In this document: positions 13,465 through 56,333 of the stretch, one piece after another
Numbering within the stretch: the stretch's first letter is position 1
How the letters are laid out: each line of letters begins with the position of its first letter
Assembly (NCBI GenBank): GCA_947630795.1
Contig: CANRJC010000002.1
Location: 1 to 64,000 of the forward strand
Source of the DNA: an uncultured Phascolarctobacterium sp.
GTDB taxonomy: Bacteria > Bacillota > Negativicutes > Acidaminococcales > Acidaminococcaceae
Length of the DNA: 64,000 nucleotides
Direction of reading: 5' to 3'
Notes under the pieces: model-generated
The model's database searches: none
Told to the model about the DNA's origin: nothing
Seen by the model: only the letters and a program-made list of their open reading frames with translations
Translations under genes and position numbers: made by a program

Positions 13465-13490
13465 AGAGACGCAGAAATGCGCCTCTTTCT
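13465..13490 (+). terminator. Intrinsic terminator after the CBS-domain gene
   Basis: AGAGACGCA, GAAA loop, TGCGCCTCT (one internal mismatch), then TTCTTT. Followed directly by the TGGAG repeat. Confidence 0.7.
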
Positions 13491-13492
13491 TT

Positions 13493-13519
13493 AGTTTGGA
13501 GTTTGGAGTGTGGAGTGTT
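13493..13519. repeat. TGGAG-type intergenic repeat
   Basis: AGTTTGGAGTTTGGAGTGTGGAGTG: three to four heptamer-like units right after a terminator, as at 1221, 2778 and 14876. Confidence 0.6.
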
Positions 13520-13624: not shown

Positions 13625-13653
13625 TTGACTTTATCTTTAAAGCTTGTTACAAT
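13625..13653 (+). promoter_or_regulatory. Promoter of structured RNA copy A
   Basis: TTGACT (13625-13630), 17-base spacer, TACAAT (13648-13653). The same boxes, spacing and flanks (AAAGCGTTGACTTT, TTGTTACAATAAAG) occur before copy B. Confidence 0.85.
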
Positions 13654-13659
13654 AAAGAT

Positions 13660-13825
13660 GCTTTAATCGCCGATCTCGCAAGAGGAGCGGCGGGACCGCA
13701 AGGGGTCAGCCCCGTTGTTTGCGGTACAAACGAATAGAGTAACGATCTAGCCGCTCACCGACAGCGGGATAGAAAACAGTCGGATCGAAGTGAGCACGTC
13801 CTTCGCCAATGGCGAGGGATTTTTT
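13660..13825 (+). ncRNA. Structured small RNA, copy A, upstream of an Rpn gene
   Basis: About 166 bases between promoter and intrinsic terminator (CCTTCGCC/GGCGAGGG, 13800-13818, then TTTTTT). Stems seen by eye: CGCCG (13668-13672) with CGGCG (13688-13692); ACCGCAA (13695-13701) with TTGCGGT (13719-13725) enclosing GGGG/CCCC; CCGCT (13751-13755) with AGCGG (13763-13767). The loop of the last stem holds CCGAC (13758-13762), which can pair with GTCGG (13779-13783) to form an H-type pseudoknot. Copy B keeps all of these with compensatory changes. I do not recognise the class; it could be a free small RNA or a riboswitch-like leader of the nuclease gene 128 bases downstream. Confidence 0.75.
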
Positions 13826-13953
13826 GTTTTTAAGTATAAAAGTTCGGCACCCCAAGTTTTTCTTCTCATTTTGTCCCTAAAAATGTATAATAAAAGTACG
13901 GTCACGTTAGGGGCAAGGTGAGTAAAATAAAAAAGCAAAAGGAGGAAAAGCCT

Positions 13954-14823
13954 ATGCCCCGAATGAAAAGGACCGTAAAGGACAGCGTCTTCACTTATCT
14001 TTTTAAAGATCCGAGGTACATCCTGCAGCTCTATAAGTCGTTGCACCGTGAGGACGATGCCACCGAAGAAAAAGATATCGAATTGCTGACCTTGACCAAT
14101 GTTCTGGTCGATGACATCTACAACGACTTAGGCTTTTTGGTGAAAGACAGGCTGATCGTTTTAGTGGAAGCTCAGTCCACATTTTCTCGGAACATCGCCT
14201 ATCGTATGCTGCTTTACATGACAGCAACTTTTAAAGCCTACGCCGATAGAGAAAAGATGGACAGCCACTCGCAGAAAGATCTGCACTTCCCTCATGCGGA
14301 GGTATATGTTATCTACACGGGGGAGGGAGAAGTCCCCGCTGTCTGTCGATTTTCGGATCTCTGTGAAAAAGGGAAAGATGAAGAAGATGTAGATGTAGAA
14401 ACGAGAGTTCATGTACTGCGGGGCGATGCCTCCGACAAAAACGACATCGTGAACCAATACGTGCGCTTTTGCAAGATTGCCGATGAAGAGCGGCGCAAAG
14501 GCGGCCCCACAGTTGAAACCGTAAAGGCGATCATAGATCGCTGTATAGAAGAAGGAGTATTGCCCGTTTTTTTGGCTTCACGGCGGAGGGAGGTAGAGGA
14601 TATCATGGTAGTATTGTTCGATGAAAAGAAAGTAAGAGAGATCCACGAGTACAATGTCAGGAAAGATGCTTTAGAAGAGGGCAGAGAAGAAGGCATCTCT
14701 GCCATGGTCACTACCTTGAAAAAGTTCGCGGGCGAAAAACGGGTCGTGGCACAGGAATTGGTGGAGAATTTCAAACTCTCGCCCGAGGTTGCCGCGGCGA
14801 AGGTGGAGCAGTATTGGAACTGA
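13954..14823 (+). CDS. Rpn-family PD-(D/E)XK nuclease (putative transposase-like), copy A
   Basis: The 289-residue product starts at ATG 13954 after AAAGGAGG. It opens with KRTVKDSVFTYLFKDPRYILQLYKSL, typical of the Rpn (recombination-promoting nuclease, transposase_31-like) family. The PD-(D/E)XK core is visible as VDDIYNDLGFLVKDRLIVLVEAQST, with the Asp and the EXQ pair. The C-terminal part carries REIHEYNVRKDALEEGREEG, the variable charged hinge common in this family, then a short helical tail. E. coli relatives cut DNA and have been linked to phage defence. A paralogue with its own RNA copy lies at 55446. Both genes have a TATAAT about 60 bases upstream (13888-13893 here). Confidence 0.88.
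   Translation: MPRMKRTVKDSVFTYLFKDPRYILQLYKSLHREDDATEEKDIELLTLTNVLVDDIYNDLGFLVKDRLIVLVEAQSTFSRNIAYRMLLYMTATFKAYADREKMDSHSQKDLHFPHAEVYVIYTGEGEVPAVCRFSDLCEKGKDEEDVDVETRVHVLRGDASDKNDIVNQYVRFCKIADEERRKGGPTVETVKAIIDRCIEEGVLPVFLASRRREVEDIMVVLFDEKKVREIHEYNVRKDALEEGREEGISAMVTTLKKFAGEKRVVAQELVENFKLSPEVAAAKVEQYWN
14605..14823 (+). other. Possible internal start for a C-terminal small Rpn protein (72 aa)
   Basis: In-frame ATG 14605 is preceded by GGAGGGAGGTAGAGGATATC, a strong ribosome-binding-like stretch. Translation from it would give MVVLFDEKKVREIHEYN and the C-terminal tail. In E. coli, rpn genes are reported to encode intragenic C-terminal proteins that block the full-length toxin. The same signal exists in copy B at 56088. 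The GGAGG also encodes part of RRREVED, so it may be coincidental. Confidence 0.4.
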
Positions 14824-14848: not shown

Positions 14849-14875
14849 GAAGGGACGCTCAGGCGTCCCTTCTTC
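14849..14875 (+). terminator. Intrinsic terminator of Rpn copy A
   Basis: GAAGGGACGC, TCAG loop region, GCGTCCCTTC, then TTC. It has the GGGACGC/GCGTCCC core shared with the porin terminators; the T-run is short. Confidence 0.75.
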
Positions 14876-14905
14876 AGTTTGGAGTGTGGAGTTTGGAGTG
14901 TAAAG
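14876..14905. repeat. TGGAG-type intergenic repeat
   Basis: AGTTTGGAGTGTGGAGTTTGGAGTG directly after the Rpn terminator. Confidence 0.6.
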
Positions 14906-54975: not shown

Positions 54976-55004
54976 TTGACTTTTGTTTTCGGCCTTGTTA
55001 CAAT
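54976..55004 (+). promoter_or_regulatory. Promoter of structured RNA copy B
   Basis: TTGACT (54976-54981), 17-base spacer, TACAAT (54999-55004), identical boxes and spacing to copy A. Confidence 0.85.
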
Positions 55005-55010
55005 AAAGGT

Positions 55011-55187
55011 GCTTGATTCGTCGCCTACCTCACGGTATGAGCGACGGGACCGCAAGGGTTCAGCCCCGTTGTTTGCGGAAGAAATGAATAGAGCAGATAG
55101 CAGCAAACGAGCCGTTAGCCGACAAGCGGCATAGAAACAGTCGGACCGAAGTGAGCACGTCCTTCGCCGTTAGGCGAAGGCTTTTTT
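55011..55187 (+). ncRNA. Structured small RNA, copy B, upstream of an Rpn gene
   Basis: About 177 bases ending in terminator CCTTCGCC/GGCGAAGG (55161-55180) and TTTTTT. Stems correspond to copy A: CGTCGC (55019-55024)/GCGACG (55041-55046), ACCGCAA (55049-55055)/TTGCGG (55073-55078), and CCGTT (55112-55116)/AA-CGG (55124-55129, one bulged G). Loop CCGAC (55119-55123) can pair with GTCGG (55140-55144). Relative to copy A, stem pairs change C-G to U-A at two places while pairing is kept. The strongly shared blocks are GGGACCGCAAGG, CAGCCCCGTTGTTTGCGG, ATAGAAA-CAGTCGGA-CGAAGTGAGCACGTCCTTCGCC in parts. Confidence 0.75.
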
Positions 55188-55345: not shown

Positions 55346-55445
55346 AAGTTTTTCTTCTCATTTTGCCCCTAAAAATGTATAATAAAAGTACGGTCACATC
55401 AGGGGCAAGGTGAGTAAAATAAAAAAGCAAAAGGAGAAAAAGCCT

Positions 55446-56333
55446 ATGCCCCAGATGAAAAGGACCGTAAAAGACAGCGTTTTCACTTATCTCTTCCAAG
55501 ACCCTAAGTACACGTTGCAGCTCTATAAGTCGCTGCACGGCGATGACGACGGCGTCGAAGAGAAAGACATCGAATTGATCACGCTGGCCAACGTCTTGGT
55601 CGACGACCTCTACAACGACTTAGGCTTTTTGGTGAAAGACAAGCTGATCATTTTGGTGGAAGCCCAATCGACTTTTTCCCCGAATCTTGCGTATCGCATG
55701 CATTTATACTCGGCGCTCACTTCCAAGAATTATGCGGATGAAAACAAACTGGACTCATTCGGTTCCAAGAAGATGCCCATCCCTATGTTCGAGCCCTACG
55801 TTATCTACACCGGCGACCAAGAAGTTCCCGACACTCTGCGTCTTTCCGATCTGTACATAGTAAAGGGCAGAGCGCGGGTAGAAACGGAAGTGCAAGTGCT
55901 GCGGGGAGATGCTGCCGACAAAAACGACATCGTGAACCAGTACGTGCGCTTTTGCAAGATCGCTGACGAAGAGCGGCGCAAAAGCGGCTCCACAGTTGAA
56001 ACCGTAAAGGCGATCATAGACCGTTGCATCGAAGAGAATGTGCTGGCAGACTTTTTGGCGTCGCGGCGGAAGGAGGTAGAAGACATCATGGTAGTTTTAT
56101 ACGATGAAGCAAAAGTAAGAGAGATCCACGAATACAATGTCAGAAAGGATGCCTTAGAAGAAGGAGTGGAGAGAGGCAGAGACGAAGGCACCGAAAAAGG
56201 TATCTCTGCCATGGTCCTTGCGCTTAAGGCTTTTGCCGTAACTAAAGATGCCGTGGCGGAGAAACTTATGCAATTCTACCAACTTTCTCCGCAAGTTGCC
56301 GAGGCTAAGGTGGAGCAGTATTGGGATCAATAA
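55446..56333 (+). CDS. Rpn-family PD-(D/E)XK nuclease, copy B
   Basis: The 295-residue product starts at ATG 55446 after AAAGGAG and is a close paralogue of the protein at 13954: KRTVKDSVFTYLFQDPKYTLQLYKSLHG, VLVDDLYNDLGFLVKDKLIILVEAQST with the Asp and EXQ of the nuclease core, DKNDIVNQYVRFCKIADEERR. Differences cluster in the region about 90-150 and in the charged hinge, which is longer here (EEGVERGRDEGTEKGIS). TATAAT at 55379-55384 is at the same place as in copy A. Nuclease and defence roles are inferred from the family. Confidence 0.88.
   Translation: MPQMKRTVKDSVFTYLFQDPKYTLQLYKSLHGDDDGVEEKDIELITLANVLVDDLYNDLGFLVKDKLIILVEAQSTFSPNLAYRMHLYSALTSKNYADENKLDSFGSKKMPIPMFEPYVIYTGDQEVPDTLRLSDLYIVKGRARVETEVQVLRGDAADKNDIVNQYVRFCKIADEERRKSGSTVETVKAIIDRCIEENVLADFLASRRKEVEDIMVVLYDEAKVREIHEYNVRKDALEEGVERGRDEGTEKGISAMVLALKAFAVTKDAVAEKLMQFYQLSPQVAEAKVEQYWDQ
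56088..56333 (+). other. Possible internal start for a C-terminal small Rpn protein (81 aa)
   Basis: In-frame ATG 56088 is preceded by AAGGAGG (56070-56076) with an 11-base spacer, matching the position of the internal ATG in copy A. The product would begin MVVLYDEAKVREIHEYN. Confidence 0.4.

Follow-up and report, generated by a model that had tools for sequence, protein, structure and literature searches.

Type III antitoxin RNAs, as reviewed, are associated with one ribonuclease toxin fold (PMC5086642). In the CptIN system of Eubacterium rectale (PDB 4RMO), the antitoxin CptI (ErCptI) folds into a pseudoknot with a one-base L1 and an A-rich L2 of nine nucleotides, which contains a function-essential kink U (U30); deletion of this nucleotide abolishes function (PMC4627078). 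An antitoxin-like RNA is also known without a toxin gene, in phage PhiTE, whose pseudo-ToxI RNA blocks ToxN (PMC3475682). Rpn proteins, on the other side of the comparison drawn here, are toxic nucleases controlled by an antitoxin, and the RpnL/RpnS toxin-antitoxin has been described for E. coli (PMC10327210); RpnS is intragenic in these Rpn/YhgA-like nucleases (PMC10327210, PMC5350276). AbiF, reported with a non-coding RNA (PMC12373285), is likewise a defence-type locus in which a protein gene is accompanied by a structured RNA, as far as that description goes, but belongs to another protein family; the two arrangements are set side by side by description only.

Here we analyse a 64,000-nucleotide stretch (the window) from an uncultured Phascolarctobacterium, in which two Rpn-like nuclease genes are each preceded by a copy of the same structured RNA. 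As far as we could find, known Rpn systems have not been described with an RNA upstream, whereas the present rpn genes have one; in the open-licence literature searched, no paper reports an antitoxin RNA 5' of an Rpn gene.

A multicopy RNA gene, each copy with a promoter and a terminator

The two related RNAs reported in a preliminary description of the window were recovered as copy A (positions 13657-13825, + strand), which matches covariance model R1 of the RNA family with 187 bits, and copy B (55008-55187, +), which the model also matches; the copies are 78% identical. Each is preceded by its own sigma-70 promoter, TTGACT-17-TACAAT in both cases (13625-13653 and 54976-55004, +), and closed by its own intrinsic terminator (13798-13826 and 55161-55187, +). 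BLASTN revealed 11 copies of the family in the window's own 1.9-Mb genome and 10 in a sister species, another uncultured Phascolarctobacterium. The -35 element is identical wherever it is included, and the -10 element is kept in all copies but one. In 19 copies aligned over 173 model positions, the pseudoknot core and the 3' tail are invariant, and over 19-21 copies from the two species the promoter, the arms of hairpin P2, the pseudoknot and the 3' tail are near-invariant.

At two orthologous loci the whole RNA is 74% identical, about the same divergence as in the adjacent spacer, and the alleles form a mosaic resembling gene conversion. Together with the weak co-variation of RNA and Rpn described below, these two features would fit a hitchhiker or unrelated small RNA, which spread by co-duplication with rpn, does not control Rpn, and either regulates other targets or is a slowly decaying remnant. 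However, the near-invariance of the elements listed above speaks against this explanation, and the decaying remnant is disfavoured because a remnant would not retain promoter, P2 arms, pseudoknot and tail. We therefore regard it as rather unlikely.

No further DNA-level match to the RNA was found in 59 more genomes drawn from the family, the order and the class, none was returned by an exact DNA pattern search of the genome contigs, and Rfam gave no match at gathering or permissive thresholds. A phage or plasmid element was considered and rejected, since neither plasmids nor phages nor viral contigs contained a match to the RNA.

Several of the cassettes formed by the RNA and rpn (L004, L006, L007, L008, L011, L017 and L024) lie just 3' of paralogous genes for SLH-domain, OmpM-like porins. 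A dispersed repeat, AGTTTGGAGTGTGGAG (window 13487-13518 and 14870-14901), occurs in many copies, where it lies behind terminators and in the interval from the RNA to rpn. Elsewhere in the window are a drum RNA (RF02958; 2118-2226, - strand; 43.6 bits, barely exceeding the gathering score of 43), a pan motif RNA (RF01749; 30695-30792, -; 47.1 bits) and a lysine riboswitch aptamer (RF00168; 59390-59561, +; 86.5 bits).

Pseudoknot structure and covariation

The H-type pseudoknot of copy A (13751-13783, +) consists of S1 CCGCT/AGCGG, L1 CA, S2 CCGAC/GTCGG and the L2 sequence GATAGAAAACA. That of copy B (55111-55144, +) reads GCCGT-TAG-CCGAC-AA-GCGGC-ATAGAAACA-GTCGG, and its element lengths equal those of the CptI unit of genome G226 and of ErCptI. 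As first described, the RNAs thus contain the CCGAC loop, GTCGG downstream of it and an A-rich third loop, and none of the 19 aligned copies departs from the pairing of loop and downstream sequence. An H-type descriptor (S1 of 5 bp, L1 of 1-3 nt, S2 of 5 bp, 0-3 nt, A-rich L2 of 8-11 nt) fits 20 of the 21 RNA copies and, on both strands of the window, matches the two RNA copies only; shuffled controls gave ~1.6 matches per 64-kb strand, and shuffles of the RNA itself matched in 6 of 2000 cases. Upstream of the pseudoknot, copy A has a 5' hairpin, P1 (13668-13692, +), and a second hairpin, P2 (13696-13724, +; CCGCAA/TTGCGG with inner GGGG/CCCC). P1 is only partly supported, and RNAalifold gave a competing long-range pairing of the 3' arm of P1 (stem 1) with the pseudoknot stem.

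Compensatory changes between the two copies had been put forward as a sign of selection on structure. The one proposed for stem 1 (CGCCG/CGGCG to CGTCG/CGACG) is an artefact of alignment register: non-homologous 5' arms had been compared (alignment columns 16-20 for A but 13-17 for B), and once the copies are correctly aligned, A has U-G and B has U-A at this pair, so that one side only has changed. The one proposed for the pseudoknot hairpin (CCGCT/AGCGG to CCGTT/AA-CGG) is possible with a bulged G, but the 3' arm of B is AAGCGG, and in the alternative stem CCGTT/AGCGG the change is again one-sided (C-G to U-G). Among the 19 paralogs, 90.2% of cells are paired in the RNA structure, and covariation did not exceed that of shuffles (92 of 500 for the score, 431 of 500 for both-sided pairs). 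The similarity among paralogs from a single genus is too great for covariation to prove the 5' stems. When 10 CptI units were pooled with 11 units of the RNA family, 94.7% of cells were paired, 4 of 10 pairs had changed on both sides, S2 was paired in 21 of 21 sequences, and the covariation score was reached by 0 of 500 shuffles. Selection on the H-type pseudoknot is therefore supported, although by the wider family and not by the two copies, or the 19 paralogs, themselves.

Homology to the CptI antitoxin

When 381 genomes of the class were searched with model R1, the best matches outside the genus were cptI genes beside cptN. The credible ones were L060 (E 2.4e-9), L082 (8.0e-9) and L084 (4.3e-4), and cptN lies directly downstream in all three. 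L060 is a cptI with two repeats, promoter and terminator, and its neighbour protein matches NF047359 (CptIN; E 7.4e-48) and the crystallised CptN 4rmo (2.2e-69). Matches at L083, L085 and L086 were discarded, as they have no adjoining cptN and their alignments skip the pseudoknot; L083 also lies within coding sequence. In the reverse search, model R2, made of 17 CptI units only, the published ErCptI included, had as its top match in the window's genome an RNA of the Phascolarctobacterium family (E 4.6e-5), in register at the pseudoknot (GCCGCUGACCGACAAGCGGGAUAUAAACAGUCGG against ACCGCUGACCGAUAUGCGGUAUAUAAAUGGUCGG). Because R2 at E 0.01 had any match in only 22 of the 381 genomes, a chance match at the pseudoknot is unlikely. 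The 3' pseudoknot of the RNA family and CptI, which serves as antitoxin in type III CptIN systems, are homologous.

The RNA shares with CptI the order and the near-equal lengths of its elements, namely S1 of 5 bp, a short L1, and the hallmark combination of a 5-bp S2 (CCGAY/GUCGG) with an A-rich L2 of 9-11 nt, as well as the two-unit spacing, an own promoter and a terminator directly 3'. In the covariance-model alignments, hairpin P2 aligns with CptI repeat unit 1, and the distance from the 3' arm of P2 to the next S1, as read from the sequences, is 26 nt in the RNA against 27 nt in L060. The RNA therefore resembles a two-unit CptI array whose first unit was remodelled, and P2 is probably, to judge from these correspondences, the remodelled unit 1. 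A possible unit-1 pseudoknot (GUU with A[AG][CU]) is a candidate by eye.

The RNA also departs from CptI in several respects. Its first unit contains an inserted hairpin and it has an additional 5' hairpin, so that one intact unit takes the place of the tandem near-identical units of CptI, and R2 matches the 3' unit only. Of the toxin processing sites that flank CptI units (GA..AAG), the 5' one (GAAAG-UUUA before S1) is gone; the 3' GAAGU is similar to the GAAAGU of CptI. The kink position reads AUAUAAA in four copies (L008, L017, L018 and L024), and the RNAs mostly have AUAGAAA or AUAGAAG, with G for the kink U. Finally, no CptN was detected, and an Rpn-like nuclease gene with its own promoter adjoins instead.

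CptN (NF047359) had no match in the window's genome or the congener, both genomes of the genus. A PF13958 search of the genome gave no match either, a result that is uninformative because the controls were silent too. Relatives within the bacterial family carry cptIN (G010, G017, G068 and G080). In other genomes of the class, CptI-like RNAs without a cptN detected in the sequence stretch examined occur at L134, L135, L139 and, near position 1500, L138; at L139 apparently just a stub of the toxin frame remains. With regard to type III organization, the downstream gene is Rpn-like and not a ToxN, CptN or TenpN endoribonuclease toxin, and a second promoter stands before rpn in place of the single promoter with a terminator between antitoxin and toxin. 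By the evidence of its sequence, the RNA is a member of the CptI family by descent, but it lacks tandem intact units, the processing flanks and a CptN partner under one promoter, and we do not class it as a type III system.

It is conceivable that CptI here outlived its toxin and serves as an antidote that neutralises CptN arriving with plasmids, phages or neighbours, with Rpn as a mere neighbour. The pseudoknot core is kept, with S2 and loop near-identical to ErCptI, and the cptIN systems of the family, the orphan cptI-like RNAs elsewhere in the class (L134, L135 and L139) and the RNAs that the sister species has in places lacking rpn would all agree with such a role. The phage pseudo-ToxI offers a precedent, although the present RNA is chromosomal, occurs in 11 copies, derives from CptI and not ToxI, and lies beside rpn. 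We nevertheless consider this explanation unlikely: the 5' flank with its processing site was lost, unit 1 was remodelled, the kink nucleotide is G in most copies, and the position of 11 of 11 copies beside rpn is left unexplained.

Rpn-like nuclease genes and their linkage to the RNA

Copy A is followed by rpn A (13954-14823, +), which encodes an Rpn-like PD-(D/E)XK nuclease of 289 aa with D58..E72-x-Q74 invariant with canonical Rpn, and copy B by rpn B (55446-56333, +; 295 aa). The Rpn-like proteins of the window's genome have 284-325 aa, all rpn frames are open, and N57 D58, E72 and Q74 are invariant and common to these proteins and their canonical Rpn relatives. The curated Rpn cut-offs are not reached (PF04754, 19.9 versus 21 bits; TIGR01784, 22.7 versus 52.1), 10 of 20 Rpn-like members match TIGR01784 at E<1e-3, and the PDB matches of two structure predictions (pLDDT 65.8 and 74.7) were all non-significant, several being PD-(D/E)XK enzymes. 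Matches to FliH were taken as low-complexity artefacts from 4-residue repeats and rejected.

With the Rpn/YhgA-like nucleases the proteins share the PD-(D/E)XK residues, variable 4-residue repeats and an internal Shine-Dalgarno sequence and start for a C-terminal protein of 72-108 aa. By analogy with PMC10327210, an intragenic RpnS of 72 aa is predicted in rpn A (14605-14823, +), and another in rpn B (56088-56333, +); nearly every paired rpn that we inspected has the conserved AGGAGGT-type Shine-Dalgarno sequence with ATG. The Rpn-like genes thus bear the marks of the RpnL/RpnS toxin-antitoxin, and Rpn probably already has the predicted RpnS as its antitoxin. Each gene has its own promoter, TTCTCA-17-TATAAT for rpn A (13863-13891, +) and at 55355-55383 (+) for rpn B. 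An inverted repeat, GTCCCTAA..TTAGGGGC (window ~13877-13917), overlaps the rpn A promoter, spans its -10 element and is kept in 16 aligned rpn copies; it looks like a putative operator.

The 11 RNA copies and 11 rpn-like genes of the window's genome are paired one to one on the same strand, with the RNA upstream and 122-256 nt from its end to the rpn ATG; the distance reaches 417 nt in the congener, and repeats are inserted. The constant type of downstream gene in this genome and the pseudoknot immediately 5' of a terminator recall a riboswitch or attenuator, in which the pseudoknot would sense a ligand and the terminator would govern transcription into rpn; ligand sensing had been suggested as possible at the outset. 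However, the RNA is a separate gene and does not lie in the leader of the gene that it would control: a conserved rpn promoter stands 3' of the terminator, spacing varies and stand-alone copies exist. These features, the 11 copies before one gene type, the lack of an Rfam match and the clear homology to CptI make this explanation very improbable.

The sister species shows that the pairing can be broken. Among its 10 RNAs, rpn lies downstream of five and is absent after two, and three are cut by contig ends; loci L019, L022, L023 and L050 are truncated. The L024 RNA has a GIY-YIG-like gene 3' of it instead of rpn, the L020 RNA (L020 1-1130) is followed by vapBC-like genes and no rpn, and at L052 a divergent rpn stands without the RNA. 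The RNA model found no match at L052, nor at L041-L045, which are distant Rpn genes from within the bacterial family. L006 and L024 occupy orthologous positions (flank 92%), which means that one species has lost rpn at this site or its sister has acquired it. The distances of RNA and Rpn are weakly correlated (r 0.24, p 0.03), and there is no correlation with the Rpn C-terminus. A type I-like antisense mechanism, in which the RNA would pair with its own rpn mRNA leader, would account for the adjoining gene, and a dosage effect is possible, but duplex energies with the own leader were no better than those with shuffled leaders (z -0.6 to +1.3), and we find this scarcely credible. Given the solo RNAs, the RNA-less rpn, the weak correlation and the lack of leader pairing, the link is strong in this genome but not absolute. 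It is this linkage that would point to a functional connection between RNA and Rpn, and co-duplication alone could also lie behind the 11:11 pairing.

Discussion

The reading that we prefer, tentatively and short of calling it probable, is that a CptI antitoxin lost CptN, was remodelled and was amplified with rpn, and that it now acts as a protein-binding RNA restraining a nuclease, most likely Rpn. In an ancestral CptI array, unit 2 would have retained the pseudoknot, unit 1 would have become hairpin P2, and a new 5' hairpin would have been gained. The resulting RNA of ~170 nt, independently transcribed, would then have been amplified jointly with the rpn-like nuclease genes, and its strong promoters and many copies may provide a surplus of pseudoknot RNA. 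Like CptI, this RNA would bind a protein and keep it inactive. Its client would most likely be the Rpn-like nuclease encoded next to it, and each RNA copy would be able to act in trans on every Rpn. A drop in transcription, for example on phage infection, would let the RNA decay and free the nuclease.

We favour this reading because of the 11:11 pairing, the best R1 matches to cptI beside cptN, the reciprocal R2 result and the pooled covariation, and because CptN had no match in either genome of the genus, promoter and terminator are kept, the rpn frames are open and the nuclease residues are intact. In addition, Rpn proteins are known as toxic nucleases under an antitoxin (PMC10327210). Against it, the RNA and rpn form two transcription units, in contrast to type III operons, and the reading is weakened by the solo RNAs (L024 and L020) and the RNA-less rpn (L052) of the sister species, the weak RNA-Rpn correlation, the probable role of RpnS as an existing antitoxin, and co-duplication as a possible cause of the pairing. 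A hybrid toxin-antitoxin, in which the CptI-derived RNA directly inhibits the Rpn PD-(D/E)XK DNase, a toxin of unrelated fold, in 11 cassettes, is possible but doubtful.

If the RNA has been re-paired with a DNA-nuclease family, RNA antitoxins would be able to switch partners, and 11 natural RNA variants are available in one genome for testing such a switch. If the RNA still blocks CptN, it would represent a chromosomal case of an antitoxin retained as an antidote.
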